A stretch of DNA of 18,372 bases from Phenylobacterium sp. Lineage in GTDB: Bacteria > Pseudomonadota > Alphaproteobacteria > Caulobacterales > Caulobacteraceae. Shown here in pieces: positions 3,168-16,581 of this stretch. The translations under genes were made by a program, and so were the position numbers. Where the stretch lies: the NCBI GenBank assembly GCA_028698405.1, contig JAQVDF010000003.1:1-18372 (forward strand), read 5' to 3'. The notes under the pieces are model-generated. The model saw only the letters and a list, made by a program, of their open reading frames with translations. It did not search any database and was not told the origin of the DNA. The first letter of the stretch is position 1. Each line of letters begins with the position of its first letter.

Positions 3168-3620
3168 ATGCACGCCGCCGTCTCCACCGATCCCGACGAC
3201 CCTATCGCGCTGGCCGAGGCCCTGCGCCCGGCGCTGCTGCGGGTTACGCGGCGGCTGAGGCAGGAGGCCAACAAGGAGGGCCTGTCGGCGCTCGACGCCC
3301 TGCTGCTCGGCGAGATCAAGCGCAAGCCCGGCATCGGCGTCTGCGACCTGGCCGACCAGGAGCAGATTTCCCGTCCGACCATGAGCGGCCACATCAAGCG
3401 GTTCGAGGCCGCCGGCTGGATCGTCCGCGCCGGCCACGCCAAGGACGGCCGCCGCTCGGGCCTGACCATCACGCCGGCCGGCCTCAAGGCGCTCGAGGCC
3501 ATCCGCCGCCGGCGCAACGACTGGCTGGCGGTACGCCTGGCCAAGCTGTCGCCCGAAGCGCGCCGCGAACTGGCCGCGGCCGCCGGCCCGCTCCTGCAGC
3601 TGCTCAAGGTGGACGCATGA
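3168..3620 (+). CDS. MarR family transcriptional regulator
   Basis: The 150-residue protein has the layout of a MarR winged-helix dimer. N-terminal helices (12-36) are followed by the wHTH: GIGVCDLADQEQISRPTMSG with the recognition helix at about 67-82, and the wing around AKDGRRSGLTITPAG (91-105), which carries the conserved D-x-R-R/S signature. A C-terminal dimerisation helix follows (110-147). It is expected to repress its own operon and release DNA on binding a phenolic or drug-like ligand. The stop overlaps the ATG of the exporter gene by four bases (ATGA), indicating translational coupling. A palindrome at 3131-3149 is the likely operator. The Shine-Dalgarno sequence at ATG 3168 is weak. 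Confidence 0.93.
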   Translation: MHAAVSTDPDDPIALAEALRPALLRVTRRLRQEANKEGLSALDALLLGEIKRKPGIGVCDLADQEQISRPTMSGHIKRFEAAGWIVRAGHAKDGRRSGLTITPAGLKALEAIRRRRNDWLAVRLAKLSPEARRELAAAAGPLLQLLKVDA

Positions 3621-5071
3621 GCCAGGTCCACGGACGCATCCCCGCCGCCACCCGTGCAAACGCCGACGCCGCCGGCCGGACCGTCCGCGGCTGGATGATC
3701 CCGGCGATCATCGGCTCGGCGATGCTGATGCAGACGTTGAACGCCACGGTGCTGCACAACGCCCTGCCGACCATGGCCGAGGCGCTGGGAGAGGATCCGC
3801 TCCGGCTCAACCTGGCGATCACCATGTACCTGCTGGCCGCGGCGGTCTTCCTGCCGATCAGCGGCTGGGCGGCCGACAAATTTGGAGCCAAGCGGATCTT
3901 CGTCCTGTCGATCGTCCTCTACGCCTTCAGCTCGGCGGCCTGCGGCTTCGCGAACAGCCTCGCCGAACTGGTCGCCGCGCGCCTCGTGCAGGGTGTCGCC
4001 GGGGCGATGATGATGCCGGTGGGTCGCCTCGTCCTCTTGCGCACCACGCCCAAGAACGAGCTGGTCGGCGCGATGTCGGTGCTGACCATGCCGGCTCTGC
4101 TCGGGCCGGTGATCGGTCCGGTGCTGGGCGGCGCCATCGTCACCTTCGGCGACTGGCGCTGGATCTTCTTCATGAACCTGCCGATCGCCGCCGTGGGCCT
4201 GGCGCTGGTGCTGCGCTTCGTTCCCAACGTCGCCGAGCAGGACGTCTCCAAGCTCGACTTCGTCGGTCTCCTGCTGACCGGCCTCGGCCTCGCCGGCCTG
4301 ATCTTCGGCTTCGAGAACCTGGGCCGCGACATCATGCCGGCCTGGGCGGTGGCCTGCCTGTTCTTCGGCGGCTTCGGCTGCGCCGGGGCCTACTGGCTGC
4401 ACGCCAAGCGCAACCCAAACGCCATCCTCGATCTGTCGCTGTTCAAGGTGCAGACCTTCACCGCCGCGGTGGTCGGCGGCTCGTTCATGCGCTTCGCCAT
4501 GGGCGCGACGCCCTTCCTGCTGGCCATGCTGCTGCAGATCGGCTTCGGCTTCACGCCGTTCGAGGCGGGCCTCTTGACCTTCATGAGCGCGGCCGGCGCG
4601 CTGATCATGAAGACCACCGCCCCGCCGATCCTGCGCCGCTTCGGCTTCAAGCGGGTGCTGATCGTCAACGCGGTGATCGTCGCCGCCTCCTTCATGGCCT
4701 ACGGCCTGTTCCGCCCGGAGTGGTCCAGGTGGGCGATCATGACGGTGCTCCTGGTCGGCGGCTTCTTCCGCTCTTTGCAGTTCACCAGCCTCAACGGCCT
4801 GGCCTACGCCGATGTGGACCAGCCGCAGATGAGCCGCGCCTCGACCATGTCGAGCATGTTCCAGCAGCTGAACCAGTCGATCGGGATCGGGCTGGCCGCC
4901 ACCCTGATCCACCTGCTGATGACCTGGAGCGGCCAGGAGCGGATGACCGCCGACACCATCGCCCCGGCCTTCATGGTGTTCGGCGTGCTCAGCCTGGTCT
5001 CCCTCGCCTTCTTCGTCCCCCTGCCCCGCAACGCCGGCGACGAGATGAACGGACGCGACCGCGCCGAGTGA
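3617..5071 (+). CDS. DHA2 family MFS exporter, MdtD-like
   Basis: The 484-residue protein has about 14 hydrophobic segments, as in the DHA2 (EmrB/QacA) drug:proton antiporters. Motif A is GWAADKFGAKR (83-93) and the antiporter motif C is GPVIGPVLGG (163-172). The stretch LVQGVAGAMMMPVGRLVLL and the overall layout recall E. coli MdtD. In TM1 the usual Asp of the D-x-T-(I/V)-x-x-x-A-L-P motif is replaced by Asn42 (TLNATVLHNALP), which could affect proton coupling. The gene overlaps the MarR gene by four bases, so the pair is a self-contained regulated efflux module in the inner membrane. No membrane-fusion (EmrA-like) or outer-membrane partner follows. The substrate is unknown. Confidence 0.92.
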   Translation: MSQVHGRIPAATRANADAAGRTVRGWMIPAIIGSAMLMQTLNATVLHNALPTMAEALGEDPLRLNLAITMYLLAAAVFLPISGWAADKFGAKRIFVLSIVLYAFSSAACGFANSLAELVAARLVQGVAGAMMMPVGRLVLLRTTPKNELVGAMSVLTMPALLGPVIGPVLGGAIVTFGDWRWIFFMNLPIAAVGLALVLRFVPNVAEQDVSKLDFVGLLLTGLGLAGLIFGFENLGRDIMPAWAVACLFFGGFGCAGAYWLHAKRNPNAILDLSLFKVQTFTAAVVGGSFMRFAMGATPFLLAMLLQIGFGFTPFEAGLLTFMSAAGALIMKTTAPPILRRFGFKRVLIVNAVIVAASFMAYGLFRPEWSRWAIMTVLLVGGFFRSLQFTSLNGLAYADVDQPQMSRASTMSSMFQQLNQSIGIGLAATLIHLLMTWSGQERMTADTIAPAFMVFGVLSLVSLAFFVPLPRNAGDEMNGRDRAE

Positions 5072-5078
5072 CCCGGCC

Positions 5079-5091
5079 GGCGCGTGGCGCC
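5079..5091 (+). terminator. Short GC hairpin after the exporter gene
   Basis: GGCGC-GTG-GCGCC forms a 5-bp perfect stem with a 3-base loop, eight bases after the exporter stop. No T-tract follows, so intrinsic termination is doubtful; it may instead protect the 3' end or pause polymerase. Confidence 0.25.
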
Positions 5092-5143
5092 ATCATAGAG
5101 GCGACGCGAGGTGATTCTGGGGCCTGCGGCTCCGGGGAAGCGG

Positions 5144-6838
5144 ATGACTCAGCAGCGGCGGGCATCGGTCGAACGCGCTGAGGGGGGCGGAGGGCCGCTC
5201 GCCAACCGCCTGTTCGCGGCCTTCGCCATCGGCCTCGCCGCCCTGCCGGTCCTGCCCCCGCCGGTCTCGCTCGGCTGGACGGCCTTCGCCCTGGCGCTGG
5301 CGGGGATCGAGGCCCGCTTCCGGCAAGGGCGGGTGCGCGGCCTCCTGGTCGTCCTCTCCCGGCTGAACTACGCGCTCATGGCGGTGCTGTTCTGGCGCAC
5401 CGAGATCGCCGTCGCCCGGCTGTTCGCGGTGGTCATCGTGGTGGTCGACCTGTTGTGGCTGCTGATGCGCCATCACCAGCGCCCGCGCGCCTTCCTGGCC
5501 GCCGCCTCCCCGATGCTGGCGCTGGGCCTCGCGGGCGCGGTCGACGTGCTGGCGCTGTTCGTACGGCAGGGGCGGCCGGCCTTCGCCCTCACCGCCCTGA
5601 TGGGGCCGCTGCTCCTGACCCACTTCCTGCTGCAGACCCGCCGGCGGCTCTGCGCCTGGCAGGCCGATCTGGCCCGCGCCGGCGCTGCGGCCGAGGCGGC
5701 GGCGCGGGCCAAACGCCATTTCCTGGCCACCATGAGCCATGAGATCCGCACGCCGCTGAACGGGGTGCTGGGCATGGCGCAGGCGATGGCCGCCGACCGT
5801 CTGAGCCCGGTGCAGCGCGAGCGGCTGGCGGTGGTCCGCGAGTCCGGCGAGGCGCTGGCCGCCATCCTCGACGACGTCCTCGACCTTGCGGCCATCGAAT
5901 CCGGCCGCCTGGAGCTGAAACCGGCCGATTTCGACCTCGCCGAACTGGCCGAGTCCGCCCTGGCGGCGGTCGCGGCGGACGCCGAAGCCAAAGGCCTCGC
6001 CGCGAAGCTGCAGATCGCCCCCGGCGCCCAGGGCGTCTATCACGGCGACGCCCGCCGGCTACGCCAGATCCTCGCCAAGCTGCTGTCCAACGCCGTCAAG
6101 TTCACCACCGCCGGCGAGGTGGAACTGACCGTGGACCGCAGGGACGACGGCCGCCTCGCCTTCGCCGTTCGCGACACGGGCCCCGGGATCGCCGAGGCCC
6201 AGCTGCAGCGCCTGTTCGAACGGTTCGAGCAGCAGGATCCCTCCTCCACCCGCCGACACGGCGGCACGGGCCTGGGGCTGTCGATCGCGCGCGAGATCGC
6301 CGTCATGCTGGGCGGCGAGATCGAAGTCCGCAGTCGGCCGGGCGAGGGCTCGACCTTCACTCTCCTTGCGCCGCTCCCGCGCATCGCCGAGGCCGCGCCC
6401 GCGACCCCGGCTTCGCCTGAGACTCTGGACCTGTCGCACGTGCGGCTGCTGGCGGCCGAGGACAACCCGATGAACCAGCTCGTCCTCAGGACCCTGCTGG
6501 GACAGCACGGGCTGGAGCCGGTGCTGGTCGCCAACGGGGCCGAGGCGCTGGCCGCCTGGCGGGCCGGCGGCTTCGACGTGATCCTGATGGACGTGCAGAT
6601 GCCGGAGCTGGACGGCCCCGCCGCCGCCCGGGCCATTCGCGCCGAAGAGGCCGCCCGCGGCCTTCCCCGCACACCTATCGTCGCCCTGACCGCCAACGCC
6701 ATGAGCTGCCAGGTCGAGGAGTACCGGGCCGCGGGCATGGACCAGCACGTCGCCAAGCCCATCGAGGCGGGGCTGCTCTACGACGCCATCCTCGCGGCCG
6801 TTCAGGCGCGCCGCGCGCTTGCCGGCGCCGTCGCCTAA
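5144..6838 (+). CDS. Hybrid sensor histidine kinase with receiver domain
   Basis: The start chosen is ATG 5144, which has GGGGAAG just upstream (564 residues); GTG 5111 would add 11. The domains in order are: about five or six membrane spans (20-165) with no periplasmic sensor domain of note; HisKA with H-box FLATMSHEIRTPLNG, phosphoacceptor His199; HATPase_c with N-box LLSNAVKFT, G1 DTGPGIA, F-box FERFEQQD and G2 GGTGLGLSIA; then a receiver with acidic pair LLAAEDN, phospho-acceptor Asp483 (FDVILMDVQMP) and Lys538 (HVAKP). All catalytic residues are present. It should autophosphorylate and pass phosphate to its own receiver. No Hpt domain, response regulator or phosphotransferase is encoded nearby, so it probably feeds a distant relay. 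The signal is unknown. Confidence 0.93.
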   Translation: MTQQRRASVERAEGGGGPLANRLFAAFAIGLAALPVLPPPVSLGWTAFALALAGIEARFRQGRVRGLLVVLSRLNYALMAVLFWRTEIAVARLFAVVIVVVDLLWLLMRHHQRPRAFLAAASPMLALGLAGAVDVLALFVRQGRPAFALTALMGPLLLTHFLLQTRRRLCAWQADLARAGAAAEAAARAKRHFLATMSHEIRTPLNGVLGMAQAMAADRLSPVQRERLAVVRESGEALAAILDDVLDLAAIESGRLELKPADFDLAELAESALAAVAADAEAKGLAAKLQIAPGAQGVYHGDARRLRQILAKLLSNAVKFTTAGEVELTVDRRDDGRLAFAVRDTGPGIAEAQLQRLFERFEQQDPSSTRRHGGTGLGLSIAREIAVMLGGEIEVRSRPGEGSTFTLLAPLPRIAEAAPATPASPETLDLSHVRLLAAEDNPMNQLVLRTLLGQHGLEPVLVANGAEALAAWRAGGFDVILMDVQMPELDGPAAARAIRAEEAARGLPRTPIVALTANAMSCQVEEYRAAGMDQHVAKPIEAGLLYDAILAAVQARRALAGAVA

Positions 6839-9023: not shown

Positions 9024-10031
9024 CTACTCGGCCGCCCAGGCGAGCGGGCGGCCGCGAGTGAGCTTGGTCTTCTCGGCGAGCGCCAGCTTGGCAGCCTCGT
9101 ACTCCGCAGCCAGCCGGTCGATCCGTTCGCCGGCGGTGGGGATGTCCTGGATGGCGCCGATGCCTTGGCCGCAGCCCCAGATATCCTTCCAGGCCTTGGC
9201 CTTCTGGTTGCCGCCCGAGCCGAAGTTCATCTTCGAGGGGTCGGCCTCGGGCAGGTTGTCCGGATCCAGCCCCGCCGCCACGATCGACGGGCGCAGGTAA
9301 TTGCCGTGCACCCCGGTGAACAGGTTGGTGTAGACGATGTCGTCGCCCGAGCTGTCGACGATCATCTGCTTGTAGCCCGGCGCAGCGTTGGCCTCCTGCG
9401 TGGCGATGAAGGCCGAGCCCATATAGGCCAGGTCTGCGCCCATCGCCTGGGCGGCCAGGATGGCGCCGCCGTTGGCGATCGCCCCCGACAGGGCGATGGG
9501 TCCGTCGAACCACTGGCGCAGCTCCTGCACGAAGGCGAACGGCGACAGCCGGCCCGCGTGGCCGCCGGCTCCGGCCGCGACCGGGATCAGGCCGTCCGAG
9601 CCCTTCTCCACCGCCTTGCGGGCGAAGGTGTCGTTGATCACGTCGTGGAAGGTGACGCCGCCGTAGCTGTGCACCGCCTGGTTCACGTCTTCGCGCGCGC
9701 CCAGCGAGGTGATGATGATCGGCACCTTGTACTTGGTGGTCATCTCCACGTCGTGCTCGAGCCGGTCGTTGGTCTTGTGGACGATGTGGTTGACTGCGAA
9801 CGGGGCCGAGGGCGCCTCCGGGTGTGCCTTGTCCCACGCCGCCAGCTCTTCGGTGATCTGCCCCAGCCACTCGTCGAGCAGGCTGGCGGGCCGCGCGTTC
9901 AGCGCGGGAAACGAGCCGACGATGCCGGCCTTGCACTGGGCGATGACCAACTCGGGTCCGGAAATGATGAACAGCGGCGAGCCGATGACCGGCAGCCGGA
10001 GGCGGTTTTCGAGGACGGCGGGAAGGGCCAC
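9024..10031 (-). CDS. Nitronate monooxygenase / 2-nitropropane dioxygenase-like flavoprotein
   Basis: The 335-residue protein has the TIM-barrel of the NMO/2-NPD family of FMN enzymes. Signatures include LPVIGSPLFIISGPELV at the first strand, VPIIITSLG (103-111), VAAGAGGHAGRLSPF (151-165) with His158 in the phosphate/active-site loop, SGAIANGGAILAAQAMGAD, and MGSAFIATQEANA. Related enzymes oxidise alkyl nitronates with oxygen, but many homologues are of unproven substrate, and some bacterial ones sit in fatty-acid or aromatic catabolism. GTG 10031 is preferred because GGAG lies seven bases upstream; TTG 10037 would leave no spacing. A TetR-like palindrome lies 26-36 bp upstream of the start. 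The C-terminal stretch after about residue 225 (DIVYTNLFTGVHGNYLRPS) is typical of the subfamily. Confidence 0.88.
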   Translation of the reverse strand: MALPAVLENRLRLPVIGSPLFIISGPELVIAQCKAGIVGSFPALNARPASLLDEWLGQITEELAAWDKAHPEAPSAPFAVNHIVHKTNDRLEHDVEMTTKYKVPIIITSLGAREDVNQAVHSYGGVTFHDVINDTFARKAVEKGSDGLIPVAAGAGGHAGRLSPFAFVQELRQWFDGPIALSGAIANGGAILAAQAMGADLAYMGSAFIATQEANAAPGYKQMIVDSSGDDIVYTNLFTGVHGNYLRPSIVAAGLDPDNLPEADPSKMNFGSGGNQKAKAWKDIWGCGQGIGAIQDIPTAGERIDRLAAEYEAAKLALAEKTKLTRGRPLAWAAE

Positions 10032-10048
10032 GAGCAAGCTCCGTTCGG

Positions 10049-10068: not shown

Positions 10069-10130
10069 CCGACACCCTCGGAGCCCGCAAGTCTCAAAGA
10101 ACGGCGTATGCGAAGGTCGGAAATCGCGGG

Positions 10131-10163
10131 CGGGCAGGTAGCGCTGCGCGCAACCGGTCACGG
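10131..10163 (+). repeat. REP-like palindromic element, unit C
   Basis: The 27-base core 10135-10161 matches the reverse complement of unit A (15193-15221) at 25 positions, with two single-base gaps. It has the form CAGGTA, then a hairpin with stem GCGC, loop TGC and stem GCGC, then AACCGGTCAC. The two gaps remove one base from each side of the stem, so pairing is kept. It lies in the 183-bp gap between the channel gene and the oxidase gene (same strand). Apart from this repeat and the TetR-like palindrome, I see nothing else in that gap. Confidence 0.7.
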
Positions 10164-10214
10164 TATTTCGCGCGCGCGGCGCCGGGTCGGCGGAAGGCCT
10201 GCCTGTCAGTTGCC

Positions 10215-11486
10215 TCAGAGCCGGTCCTCCGGCGGCTGCTCTGCCTTGCGGGTCCAGCGGTCGAGAAGCTGACGGGCGGCCTCACGGCCGCCGAGGCCGA
10301 AGGCGAGCGCCGCGGCCACCGCCGCCGAACCGAGGATCAGGCCGAACGCCAGGATGACGATCTCGTCGGCGATGCCCATGAACCGCAGGCCCATGGCCGT
10401 GGCCAGCGCGATGGTCGCCCAGCGCACGATGCTGGAGGCGAAGCCGTCCGCCCCGCCCGTCGAGCGATCGATCATCCCGGCCAGGAAGTGGGCCAGCAGC
10501 ACGCCGACGGTGATGATCACCCCGCCGAACAGCACGTGGCCCGCCAGGTCCAGCACCTCCTGCAGGATCTGGGCGATGGCGACGAACTCCAGCAGCCGCG
10601 CCGCCTCGATGGCCGACAACAGCATGATCGCCACCAGCACCAGCTGGGCGACCACCTTCGAGGGCGTCGCCGTGAGCACCGGGGACGGCTCGGCGGCGGG
10701 CGCCTGGTCGGCCGGGGCCTCCGCCGGCGGGACGGCGGGCGCCGTCGCCTTCACGCCGAGCGACTGCAGGCTGCGATCGAAGCCCAGCGAAGGCAGGACC
10801 TGTTCGATCAGCCCGGCCACCCAGCGGCCGATGAAGAAGGCGAGCGAAAGCACGATGGCGGCCGCCAGCACCCGCGGCAGCGCGCTCAGCACCGTCTGGA
10901 GCACCGCCACCGCCGGGGCCGAGATGGCCTCGATCTGCAGCTGCTCCAGCGCGGCGATGGTCACCGGGATGACGATCAGAACGAACACCAGGGTGCCCAA
11001 TGTCTTGCCGAGCCCCGAGGCGCCGGTGATGCGCGACAGCCCTGCCCGCTCAAGCCAGTTGTCGATGCGAGCCGCGGTCAGCGCCGCCTCCACCACACGC
11101 CGCGCCAGCGTCGCCACCACCAGGCCGACGACGAAGATGACCCCGGCGCCGATGATGTTGGGCACGAAGACCAGCACGTCGCTGATCAGCGTCGAGAGCG
11201 GGATGACCACGTCGTCCAGCTCCAGGATGGTCAGGGCGGCGATCACGCCGATCAGCAGCACCAGCCAGTAGCCGAGCTGGCCGAGCTGGTAGCCGATGGT
11301 CTCACGAGGGCCGGCGTCGCGGTTGTGCGCCCTGATGCCCGGGAACCGGTCGATCAGCTTGGCCATGCCCCACTGCACGCCCTTGGCCAGGAAGTGGGCG
11401 GCGACCAGCACCGCGATGGCGGTGAGGATCTTCGGGCCCCACTCGTAGAGGATGTCCTGGACGTCGTAGTAGCCAGCGGTCGGCAT
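10215..11486 (-). CDS. Mechanosensitive-channel-like protein with conserved TM-helix repeats
   Basis: The 423-residue membrane protein has about ten hydrophobic segments arranged as repeats of the conserved TM_helix module: PNIIGAGVIFVVGLVVATLARRVVEA (around 110-135), LPRVLAAAIVLSLAFFIGRWVAGLIEQ (around 205-230) and LFGGVIITVGVLLAHFLAGMID (around 315-340). The last span ends AFGLGGREAARQLLDRW, like the pore-helix end of MscS-family proteins. The MscS beta domain and C-terminal cage are absent, as in CmpX-type proteins, which are linked to membrane tension and envelope stress. An Ala/Pro-rich linker (about 250-272) joins two halves. GGGGA lies seven bases before ATG 11486. The gene diverges from mutA. 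Channel activity is inferred from family membership only. Confidence 0.82.
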   Translation of the reverse strand: MPTAGYYDVQDILYEWGPKILTAIAVLVAAHFLAKGVQWGMAKLIDRFPGIRAHNRDAGPRETIGYQLGQLGYWLVLLIGVIAALTILELDDVVIPLSTLISDVLVFVPNIIGAGVIFVVGLVVATLARRVVEAALTAARIDNWLERAGLSRITGASGLGKTLGTLVFVLIVIPVTIAALEQLQIEAISAPAVAVLQTVLSALPRVLAAAIVLSLAFFIGRWVAGLIEQVLPSLGFDRSLQSLGVKATAPAVPPAEAPADQAPAAEPSPVLTATPSKVVAQLVLVAIMLLSAIEAARLLEFVAIAQILQEVLDLAGHVLFGGVIITVGVLLAHFLAGMIDRSTGGADGFASSIVRWATIALATAMGLRFMGIADEIVILAFGLILGSAAVAAALAFGLGGREAARQLLDRWTRKAEQPPEDRL

Positions 11487-11606: not shown

Positions 11607-13030
11607 ATGAACGACGTCACCGCCCTCGCCGCCGGCTTCGAGCCCGCCTCGGAAGAGGCCTGGCTCGCCCTCGTGCGAAAGACCCTCAAGGACAGGCCCG
11701 TGGAGTCCCTGGACGGCGCCACCGTCGAAGGACTGCCGATCCGGCCCCTCTACCCGCCTGTAAGGGACGCCCGGCCGCTGATCGGCCCGCGCGATCCGGT
11801 GCGGCCGTGGGACGTGCGCGCCCTGACCCGCCATCCCGACCCGCTGCAGGCCAACCGCGAACTGCTGGCCGACCTCGCTGGCGGCGCGGCCTCCGTGGTC
11901 GTGCGGATCGACCCCACAGGCCAGGACGGCGTCGCGGTGGGCTCGGCGGAGGGTCTGGCCCAGGCGCTGGAGGGGATCGAGCTCGAACTCGCGCCGGTGG
12001 CGCTGGACGCCGGCTTCCTCGGGTCCAAGGCCGCCGACTGGCTGCACGCGGTCGCCAAGTCCTCGCCGGCCGCCCGGCTTCAGTTCCACCTCGACCCGCT
12101 GAGCGCGCTGGCCGAGGCCGGGGCCAGCCCTGGGCCGATCGAGGGCCACCTGATCGCCGCGGCGACGGTCGCCGCCAGGCTCGCCCAGCCCTATCCCAAG
12201 GCCGGCCTGTTCCTGGCCTCGGGCCGCATAGCGCACGAGGCCGGCGGCGGTGAGGCGGCCGAGATCGCCTTCGCGGCCGCCGCCGGCCTCGCCTACGCCA
12301 AGGCTATGGTGCGCCAGGGCCTGTCGATGGAGGCCGCCTTCGCCGGCGTGACCCTGGGGCTTGCGGCCGATTCCGACGTGTTCCTGAGTCTCGCCAAGCT
12401 GCGCGCGGCCCGGCTCGTCTGGGCGCGGATCGCCGAGGCCTGCGGCGCGGCGCCTACGGCGCGGATCGAGGCGCGCGCCTCGCGCCGGATGCTCGCCGCC
12501 CAGGACGCCTGGACCAACATGCTCCGCCTGACCGCCGCCGGCTTCGCCGCCGCGGCCGGCGGGGCCGACGCGGTAGTCCTCGGCTGCTTCACCGACCCGC
12601 TCGGCCTGCCGACCGCCTTCGCCCGTCGGCAGAGCCGCAACACCCAGCTGGTGCTGATGGAGGAGGCGCACGTCGGCCGCGTCGCCGACCCGGCCGCCGG
12701 CTCGGGTTACGTCGAGTCCCTGACCGACCAGCTGGCGCGGGCCGCCTGGGACCGCTTCCAGGCCATCGAGGCGGCCGGCGGGATCGTGAATGCGCTCGCC
12801 TCGGGCCTGATCGCCCGCGACGTGGACGCCGCCCGCGCCGCGCGCGAGGCCGCCGGCCAGCCGCGCATCGTCGGCGTCACCGCCTTCCCGCCGCAGAAGG
12901 ACGAGATCCCCGAGGTCGTGCGGGTCGAGCCGCGCGCCGTCGAAGCCCCCTCGCCCCGCCTGCCCGGGCCGGACAGCACCTGTCCGCCGCTCACGCCCAT
13001 CCGCCTCAGCGCGCCATACGAGGCCGCCCA

Positions 13031-13034
<4 letters not shown>
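11607..13034 (+). CDS. mutA: Methylmalonyl-CoA mutase small (beta) subunit, short form
   Basis: The 475-residue protein carries the mutase TIM-barrel fold of the non-catalytic small subunit: [17 protein letters not shown] near the N-terminus, [10 protein letters not shown] (42-51), [39 protein letters not shown] and [21 protein letters not shown], ending with VGVTAFPP. Known MutA proteins from Propionibacterium or Streptomyces exceed 600 residues, with a degenerate B12-binding-like domain. Here the chain ends about 50 residues after the barrel in a Pro-rich tail, so that domain is missing. It pairs with MutB in the dimer that converts methylmalonyl-CoA to succinyl-CoA (propionate, branched-chain amino acid and odd-chain fatty acid use). 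Its stop overlaps the mutB start (ATGA), so translation is coupled and near-equal output is expected. Confidence 0.93.
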
Positions 13035-15184
<2,150 letters not shown>

Positions 15185-15191
15185 TCCCTTC

Positions 15192-15277
15192 GGTCACTGG
15201 TTGCGCCGCAGGCGCTACCTGTCACCTCCCGGCGCGCCCTAGTGACAGGTAGGCCGCGTTGCGGCCAACCAGTCACC
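15192..15277. repeat. Pair of inverted REP-like palindromes (units A and B)
   Basis: Unit A (15192-15226, minus orientation) and unit B (15242-15277, plus) are inverted copies 15 bases apart, filling the gap between the convergent mutB and SulP genes. Each unit is itself a hairpin. Unit B reads GTGAC, A, GGT, A, stem GGCCGC, loop GTT, stem GCGGCC, A, ACC, A, GTCAC. GTGAC pairs with GTCAC and GGT with ACC, separated by A-A mismatches. Unit A keeps the flanks but has a different inner stem (GCGCC-TGC-GGCGC). The two units also pair with each other over 11 exact bases (CTACCTGTCAC with GTGACAGGTAG), so a cruciform is possible. The layout matches a BIME-like pair and may act as a bidirectional transcript end. 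No T-tract is present. Confidence 0.75.
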
Positions 15278-15297
15278 AGCTGACTTCACCGAACCCG

Positions 15298-16581
15298 TCA
15301 GACTCGCGAGGCCTTCCAGCGGCTCCAGACCGCCAGGCCCATGGCGATAGCGCAGCCGGTGCCGATGCCGGCGATCAGGTCGTGGAAGATGGTCAGCAGG
15401 AAGGTCGCGGCCAGCACCGCGGCCGCCCCCTTGCGCTCGACCAGCAGGCGCTTGATCTCGGCCTTCTCGGCCATGTTCCAGGCGACCACCGCCAGCAGGC
15501 CCGCCAGCGCCGGCAGCGGGACGTAGGCGGCCAGCGGCGCGGCCAGCAGCATGAACACCAGCAGGTAGGCCGAGTGCATGATGCCCGAGACGGGGCTGGT
15601 GGCGCCGGCCCGCACATTGGTGGCGGTCCGGGCGATGGTGCCGGTCACGGGGATGCCGCCGAACACCGCCGAGCCGACGTTGCCCAGGCCCTGAGCGATC
15701 AACTCCATGTTCGAGCGGTGCTGGCGGCCGGTCATGCCGTCGGCGACCACGGCCGAGAGCAGGCTCTCGATGCCGCCCAGCAGGGTGAAGGCGAGCGCCG
15801 CAGGCATCACCTCGATCAGCTTGCTCCAACTGATCTGCGGCAGGTGCGGCGCCGGCAGGCCGTGCGGGATGCCGCCGAAACGGGTGCCGATGGTCTCCAC
15901 CGGAAGGTGGAACACGGTGGCGACGATGGCCGCGCCGGCCACCGCGATCAGCAGGCTGGGCCAGGTCGGCTTGAACCGCTTGATGGTCTGGATGACGACG
16001 ATCACCGAGACCGAGAGCGCCAGGGCCTGCCAGCTCATGGTCGGCGCCGCGTCGGCCAGCGCCTTCAGCTTAGGCAGCAGCTCGCCCGGCTCGGGGCCGG
16101 ACAGGCTCAGGCCGAACAGGTCCTTCAGCTGGCTCGCGAAGATCACCACCGCGATGCCGGCCGTGAAGCCGACCGTCACCGGATGCGGGATCAGCCGGAT
16201 CAGCCCGCCGAGGCGAAAGACGCCTGCCAGGGTTACGAACAGGCCCGAGAGGAAGGTGGCCATGATCAGGCCGTCGACGCCGTGCACGGCCGCTGTCGAG
16301 GCCACCAGCACGATGAAGGCGCCGGCCGGCCCGCCGATCTGGAACCGGCTGCCGCCGAGAGCCGAAACGAGGAAGCCGCCGACGATGGCGGCGTAGAGTC
16401 CACGGTCGGGAGAAACCCCCGAGGCGATGGCGATGGCCATCGACAGCGGCAGGGCCACGATGGCCACGGTGAGGCCGGCGATGGCGTCGGCTTTGAATCT
16501 GCGTAGGTCGTAACCCTCCTCGAGGAGGGTCGCCAACTTGGGCAAATAGACGTCTGTTCGGGGCTGCGCAGCCTCGGTCAT
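15298..16581 (-). CDS. SulP (SLC26) family anion transporter lacking the STAS domain
   Basis: The 427-residue protein covers the full SulP transport domain. It begins with a short cytosolic stretch (about 30 residues), then AIAGLTVAIVALPLSMAIAI, the SulP signature region SPDRGLYAAIVGGFLVSALGGS, FQIGGPAGAFIVL, HPVTVGFTAGIAVVIFASQL, GGIESLLSAVVADG and FGGIPVTGTIARTATNVRAGA. About 12-14 membrane spans end at DLIAGIGTGCAIAMGLAVWSRWK, where the chain stops. Typical SulP proteins run to about 550 residues with a cytosolic STAS domain; this is absent, and the 113 bp before mutB cannot hold one. Substrate (sulfate, bicarbonate or other anion) cannot be decided. ATG 16581 has GGAAG at 12 bases and GAG at 7 bases upstream. 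An 18-bp perfect palindrome lies at codons 18-23. Confidence 0.93.
   Translation of the reverse strand: MTEAAQPRTDVYLPKLATLLEEGYDLRRFKADAIAGLTVAIVALPLSMAIAIASGVSPDRGLYAAIVGGFLVSALGGSRFQIGGPAGAFIVLVASTAAVHGVDGLIMATFLSGLFVTLAGVFRLGGLIRLIPHPVTVGFTAGIAVVIFASQLKDLFGLSLSGPEPGELLPKLKALADAAPTMSWQALALSVSVIVVIQTIKRFKPTWPSLLIAVAGAAIVATVFHLPVETIGTRFGGIPHGLPAPHLPQISWSKLIEVMPAALAFTLLGGIESLLSAVVADGMTGRQHRSNMELIAQGLGNVGSAVFGGIPVTGTIARTATNVRAGATSPVSGIMHSAYLLVFMLLAAPLAAYVPLPALAGLLAVVAWNMAEKAEIKRLLVERKGAAAVLAATFLLTIFHDLIAGIGTGCAIAMGLAVWSRWKASRV
16513..16530. repeat. 18-bp perfect palindrome inside the SulP gene
   Basis: ACCCTCCTCGAGGAGGGT is perfectly self-complementary over 18 bases. It lies near the 5' end of the SulP coding region, about 50 bases after its start codon. 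It contains a strong Shine-Dalgarno-like GAGGAGG and its complement CCTCC on both strands. No suitable start codon follows on either strand. It could be a protein-binding site or coincidence in GC-rich coding DNA. Confidence 0.5.

Follow-up and report, generated by a model that had tools for sequence, protein, structure and literature searches.

A REP-like palindrome family with conserved mismatches and paired stem changes in a Phenylobacterium genome

Palindromic units in the window

The window analysed here is a stretch of 18,372 nucleotides from a Phenylobacterium sp., and it carries three copies of a short palindrome. Two of them lie between the convergent genes of a methylmalonyl-CoA mutase with a B12-binding domain (13031-15184, forward strand; Pfam PF01642, PF02310) and a sulfate permease family protein (15298-16581, reverse strand; PF00916). 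Unit A (15192-15226, reverse strand; inner stem GCGCC/GGCGC, loop TGC) has its tail 7 nt from the stop codon of the mutase gene, and unit B (15241-15277, forward strand; inner stem GGCCGC/GCGGCC, loop GTT) has its tail 20 nt from that of the permease gene. The heads of the two units, 'head' being the GGTGACAG end, face each other across a spacer of 14 nt (15227-15240). Two adjacent methylmalonyl-CoA mutase genes occupy 11607-15184 on the forward strand, the first with the mutase domain alone and the second with the B12-binding domain as well.

Unit C (10130-10162, forward strand; inner stem GCGC/GCGC, loop TGC) lies between the genes of a nitronate monooxygenase family protein (9024-10037, reverse strand; PF03060) and of a mechanosensitive-channel-like membrane protein (10215-11486, reverse strand; PF05552), 52 nt behind the stop codon of the latter. 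Its outer stem is damaged (GCGGG...TCACG), and when it was folded with its flanks, the minimum-energy DNA fold differed from the drawn hairpin. A possible decayed GGCC-type partner (...GGCGGAAGGCCTGCCTGTCAG) was seen by eye at 10184-10209 on the reverse strand, and the two are probably a former tail-to-tail pair. The partner did not appear among the 52 window matches, up to E 10, of the covariance model R1 described below.

Unit B folded as drawn (z -5.8), and none of 200 shuffles equalled it; so did unit A (z -2.5; stretch folded, 15193-15227), with four of 200 shuffles equalling it. The original prediction had placed three units with shared arms at these positions, and they were located there. 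The arms are real, as their pattern matched the window three times and none of 200 shuffled versions. R1 gave 46.1, 47.8 and 43.8 bits for units A, B and C, scores that are not independent since all three were among its training sequences; the best other match in the window had 10.8 bits. No Rfam match reached the gathering score in the window, and no intrinsic terminator (a hairpin followed by a T run) was found at the A/B junction when 14900-15600 was scanned.

A palindrome family in the host genome

The host draft genome consists of 2,470,294 bases in 473 contigs and is 73% complete. The arm pattern CAGGTA-N6-30-AACCNGTSAC matched it 30 times, and the reversed control pattern did not match. 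These 30 copies were aligned (alignment A1), the hairpin was assigned by hand, and R1 was trained on them. R1 recovered 66 matches in the host at E<=1e-3, the family being one of imperfect 33-nt palindromes. Two matches (on C284 and C426) have a flank in common where a contig ends and probably represent a single place, giving at most 65 places. With 66 model matches in 2.47 Mb and a palindrome within 20-40 nt, the family has the size and copy number of REPs in the broad sense. Rfam searches of nine loci returned nothing at threshold; the five sub-threshold matches, to microRNA families, all fell in one locus, a homotypic long palindrome (L038).

The units share one plan: an outer stem of 6 bp (GGTGAC/GTCACC), a mismatch, three base pairs, a second mismatch, a covarying inner stem (usually 4 bp) and a loop of 3 nt. 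In a set of 54 distinct host units, position 7 lacked pairing in 50, of which 34 had A.A, and position 11 in 52, of which 40 had A.A. In unit C the outer mismatch is A.G, not A.A. The commonest inner stems among the 54 were GCGC/GCGC (19) and GGCC/GGCC (17), and the loop read T-N-C in 41 of the 50 host units that had four or more inner pairs, identical units being counted one by one. Which bases stand unpaired depends on the strand, as the complement would carry T.T and G-N-A.

The changes in the inner stem are paired. Among the 21 distinct rows of A1, two pair positions swap C-G for G-C, with nine rows of each at one position and ten of each at the other. The covariation score was 0.159 compared with 0.073, and 92.3% of cells were paired compared with 86.0%, both above all 500 shuffles. 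The number of pairs with a two-sided change (2; shuffles, 2.2) and the number of pair types (4) were not above the shuffles. When the inner 3' halves were swapped between host units, the mean inner stem fell from 3.31 to 1.96 bp, and none of 500 shuffles reached the observed value. The prediction of a genome-wide family had named two grounds for giving it up, fewer than about five copies or copies lacking compensatory stem changes. It survived both, with 66 model matches and with stem changes that keep the pairing.

The 66 matches resolve into 43 elements, of which 21 are tail-to-tail pairs, two are head-to-head pairs (A/B of the window and one on contig C257) and 20 are singles, some of which have, by eye, partners too decayed for R1. 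Inverted pairs, a further property of REPs in the broad sense, thus make up 23 of the 43. The likeness of the A/B pair to a BIME, suggested at the outset, holds in that inverted pairs are common; the order of A and B, with the GGTGACAG ends inward across 14 nt, is exceptional, being shared by just 2 of the 23 pairs, whereas a usual pair is heterotypic, runs tail-to-tail and has a spacer of 10 nt. The tail-to-tail spacer was exactly 10 nt, about one helical turn, in 17 of the 21 pairs and 11, 11, 13 and 17 nt in the rest. The arms of these pairs are 88.8% identical. The middle eight bases of the spacer showed 35.0% identity between pairs, slightly above the shuffled value of 29.7% (sd 1.2).

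When both units of a pair could be typed, head-to-head pairs included, 16 of 17 pairs were heterotypic (p=1.3e-4 against random joining; six of the 23 pairs were left untyped). With RNA parameters, one long fold over the two hairpins gained a mean of 13.1 kcal/mol in natural tail-to-tail pairs (long fold in 19/21), compared with 41.0 kcal/mol in homotypic controls (42/42); with DNA parameters the gains were 6.9 (16/21) and 28.4 (42/42), respectively. Because natural pairs gain less than the homotypic controls, heterotypy weakens the long palindrome and does not remove it. Di Nocera et al. (PMC3733652), writing on REPs, described the preference for heterodimers as being without an obvious explanation, and suggested that heterodimers may escape enzymes that cleave palindromes.

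Genes were called with our own codon-usage caller, which is crude, and the junction background was taken from the neighbourhoods of the elements. On these calls, 24 host elements lay at convergent junctions, 14 at tandem, one at a divergent junction and four at contig edges; the element-free junctions of the same DNA were 8 convergent, 40 tandem and 6 divergent. Convergent junctions were thus enriched (24/39 elements compared with 8/54 element-free junctions; p=5e-6), while avoidance of divergent junctions was by itself not significant (p=0.23). No element lay wholly within a called gene and two overlapped a gene end, so that the copies sit in intergenic gaps or beside them. Gaps of up to 80 nt between an element and a stop codon facing it numbered 57, with a median of 12 nt; 39 were of 15 nt or less. 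In singles, 15 such gaps lay towards the head and 10 towards the tail, and of those of 20 nt or less 13/16 were on the head side. In tail-to-tail pairs the outward position of the heads follows from construction.

Distribution and a relative family in Oryzibacter

R1 at E<=1e-3 found no match in 59 relatives (35 of the genus and 24 of the order), scanned with stricter filters and at most 118 candidates scored per genome. The pattern GGTGACAGG-N10-30-CCAGTCACC occurred in the host only, among 385 genomes of the class and 101 of the genus (0 of the 100 other members). A looser pattern matched the host and one further genome of the 385 (G265) once, with the control pattern matching three times; the G265 match was taken as chance, as its inner positions were unpaired by eye. 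The window itself belongs to the genus: its mutase gene shares 82-83% identity with those of the best relatives, and a queried stretch of 1.9 kb was matched in 96 of 101 genus genomes, the host included. Relatives of the mutase point to an alphaproteobacterial host; Streptomyces is among them too. Among the junctions of relatives that were viewed (13 fetched stretches and 29 loci), the two window genes were side by side in one genome (G005), where the junction was, by eye, without such a hairpin; this is evidence of absence there, not of movement.

The exact pattern was run against 84,980 named genomes, a set that may lack records close to the genome of the window. It matched Oryzibacter oryziterrae three times and one Gracilibacteria stretch; the latter was rejected, having by eye no matching inner stem. 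Oryzibacter belongs to the Hyphomicrobiales, and we infer that its order differs from that of the host: the order relatives scanned with R1 represent just four further families, while 38 families are reported for the Hyphomicrobiales. Over 397 genomes of Oryzibacter's order, a pattern matched Oryzibacter 18 times and one other genome (G519) once. The latter match (L114; G519:C76:5415-5471) keeps, by eye, the A.A mismatch at either position as well as the two inner pairs, with an off-set GGTCA/TGACC hairpin inside. It has no inner stem at the base, and it is either chance or a lone relative. In viral contigs the strict pattern was not found, and the 18 stretches matching a loose pattern were taken as chance, since none combined pairing at the two inner positions with an inner stem that reached 2 bp. 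Searches of plasmids gave two 19-nt matches to a host unit and none to an Oryzibacter unit.

R1 gave 25 matches in Oryzibacter up to E 1, 14 of them at E<=1e-3. Five span 78 nt and have a longer inner stem; these were excluded and four units found by regular expression were added, giving 24 units, 22 of them distinct. Both mismatches were unpaired in all 22 (18/18 when the units found by the expression, which itself demands purines there, were left out), with R1 itself leaning towards unpaired bases at these positions. Compensatory changes were present at pair 9 (T-A 11, G-C 8, C-G 1) and at pair 10 (T-A 16, A-T 6). Swapping of the inner 3' halves reduced the mean inner stem from 3.50 to 1.37, a result for which no shuffle out of 500 reached the observed value. 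Of the 14 units having four or more inner pairs, nine had a T-N-C loop. The pairs that were read are head-to-head, with spacers of roughly 45 nt. The 22 Oryzibacter loci were 5 convergent, 8 tandem, 1 divergent and 8 undecided.

The 78-nt form of the Oryzibacter hairpin, whose inner stem is GCCCAATTCA/TGAATTGAGC, is found close to one end of a repeat of ~650-930 bp, with copies at L089 (946-1628), L090, L091, L092 and L086 (126 bp only); four of the five are 93-96% identical. At locus L169 no gene was called at this repeat; ~1.2 kb from a 78-nt unit, at 3423-5527, lie an AAA ATPase gene (PF13304, PF13175) and, after it, a gene of 264 aa that matched nothing in Pfam.

The original prediction had proposed a search for a RAYT transposase gene flanked by the same palindrome, and a link to RAYT was not supported. 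The Y1_Tnp model had no match in the host (73% complete) and no significant match in Oryzibacter (4.8 Mb; best E 0.63). It matched in 20 of 100 genus genomes. At the eight RAYT loci scanned (L064-L071), out of 23 matches listed, the palindrome was not found beside the gene; two carried a lone GTGACAG-like heptamer, and no clear GTAG palindrome pair was seen flanking the Y1_Tnp genes of these eight. Among the Oryzibacter genes near neighbouring copies, ten proteins examined with Pfam included no transposase (for L168 the ORFs were judged by eye only).

Comparison with known repeats and possible origin

Searches of open papers brought up no description of this repeat sequence. The GTAG REPs, BIMEs and REPINs that go with RAYTs, e.g., in Escherichia coli, are likewise extragenic hairpins of 20-40 nt behind genes, occurring as inverted pairs and heterodimers, in the accounts of them in PMC3733652, and the REP of E. 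coli has a conserved mismatch within the stem, as here, according to PMC8266576. The present units lack the unpaired GTAG foot, both ends being paired (GGTGAC/GTCACC), have two separated single mismatches, and occur where RAYT was not found (the 73%-complete host) or not significant (Oryzibacter). CGTC REPs, according to PMC3733652, resemble this family in forming pairs, in occurring mainly in Alphaproteobacteria and in having no dedicated transposase known; they are described there with a CGTC-like foot, a stem of 8-9 bp, a loop of 4-5 nt and mostly a CCA tail. Our units lack a CGTC foot, A/T pairs at positions 1-2 of the stem and a CCA tail, and their loop is of 3 nt rather than 4-5. The original prediction had not recognised the sequence as a named family. 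By the published descriptions of both groups, the repeat fits neither the GTAG nor the CGTC REPs.

Br-REP1 and Br-REP2 of Bradyrhizobium are likewise 3'-UTR palindromes, Br-REP1 lies between convergent genes, and their copy number varies strongly among relatives, as here (PMC5082802); their consensus sequences are unrelated to ours. The CIR elements of Caulobacter and Brucella are also intergenic, alphaproteobacterial and built of two palindromic arms and a linker, but are about 110 bp long with GANTC sites (PMC2229807); none of the 43 host elements contains GANTC, and the family is not CIR. REPs are already known for most habits of the family, such as inverted heterodimers, variable spacers and a place behind convergent genes. 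For the untagged, doubly mispaired design we found no description.

The reading that we prefer, with about even confidence, is that these are REP-type non-autonomous palindromic repeats, spread by a putative enzyme that reads the folded strand as single-stranded DNA. Such an enzyme would read one strand of the hairpin through the mispaired adenines and the loop, and would not be a detectable Y1 protein. A parallel is E. coli TnpA-REP, for which the mismatched bulge of the REP is reported as required for cleavage (PMC8266576). Copies would survive just behind stop codons, where they would be least harmful, and in transcripts the survivors would fold into hairpins of the 3'-UTR. Where two identical units are paired, the result would be a palindrome with nearly perfect 33-nt arms, and such pairs would mostly be lost, leaving the heterotypic pairs.

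Against such spread, no candidate enzyme was found in the host or Oryzibacter, no movement was observed, and the middles of the spacers are close to random, which would not be so in fresh copies from a single master. Also counting against it, the pairs of A1 with a two-sided change were no more numerous than in shuffles, although the covariation score and the share of paired cells were above all 500. Direct repeats of 3-8 nt were not in excess at the edges of the 23 pairs, the one 6-nt case being matched by 20 of 500 shuffles. Such target-site duplications are not generally expected of REPs.

The main rival is a role in RNA: elements selected by the host would protect mRNA 3' ends, slow translation near the stop codon (within about 15 nt) or terminate transcription bidirectionally, with no transposition. 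We think this possible, though rather doubtful. The enrichment at convergent junctions speaks for it, as do the stop-codon gaps (39/57 of 15 nt or less, median 12; 13/16 short gaps of singles on the head side), and REPs within 15 nt of a stop codon are reported to stall ribosomes (PMC12306157). Absence from the 100 other genus members would be odd for a housekeeping signal, no terminator-like site was found at the window junction, and orientation varies, the tail pointing towards a stop codon within 100 nt in the window pair and, by reading, in 11 of the 22 loci of Oryzibacter. Bases specific to one strand could just as well serve RNA. Recognition of a folded DNA strand is favoured because the unpaired bases are kept in both hosts though the gene-facing end differs; a 3'-UTR role may hold alongside it.

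It is quite unlikely that the family is a REP moved by a RAYT that was either lost or is encoded in the part of the genome that the draft lacks. The 73% completeness of the host and the Y1_Tnp matches in 20 of 100 genus genomes leave room for such a gene, and host units have GTAG-like letters at positions 9-12. These letters lie inside the stem and are changed to GTAC, TTAC, CTAC or GAAC in most Oryzibacter units; moreover, Oryzibacter had no significant Y1_Tnp match in its 4.8 Mb, and the palindrome stood beside none of the eight genus RAYT loci scanned.

We regard as very unlikely a duplex binding or recombination site, with 12-bp inverted arms around eight variable bases as for a tyrosine recombinase. 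The core AACCAGTCACCG-N8-CGGTGACTGGTT is indeed of fixed length in 17 of 21 tail-to-tail pairs, with a nearly random middle, but 20 of 43 elements are single, two are head-to-head, as are the Oryzibacter pairs, and the covarying inner stems and kept mismatches would stay unexplained. A MITE of a cut-and-paste insertion sequence with GGTGACAG ends, to which the inverted ends of tail-to-tail pairs would conform, is most improbable given the singles, the head-to-head pairs and the lack of a direct-repeat excess at 23 pairs; the form with target duplication was dropped, as these pairs showed no duplications.

Returning to spread through a folded DNA strand, a more specific and frankly speculative version is that an undescribed non-Y1 enzyme moves the family and maintains its shape by means of the two mispaired adenines and the T-N-C loop, and that the family was passed between distant bacteria and expanded within individual species. 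If true, this would be a second kind of hairpin-DNA mobilisation beside that of RAYT and REP. The family shows clearly two puzzles, the lack of a known transposase, as in the CGTC REPs, and the preference for heterodimers, and its fixed unpaired bases are something that a protein could read. With a relative family in a named strain, Oryzibacter oryziterrae COJ-58, both the putative enzyme and the possible role at 3' ends are open to experiment.
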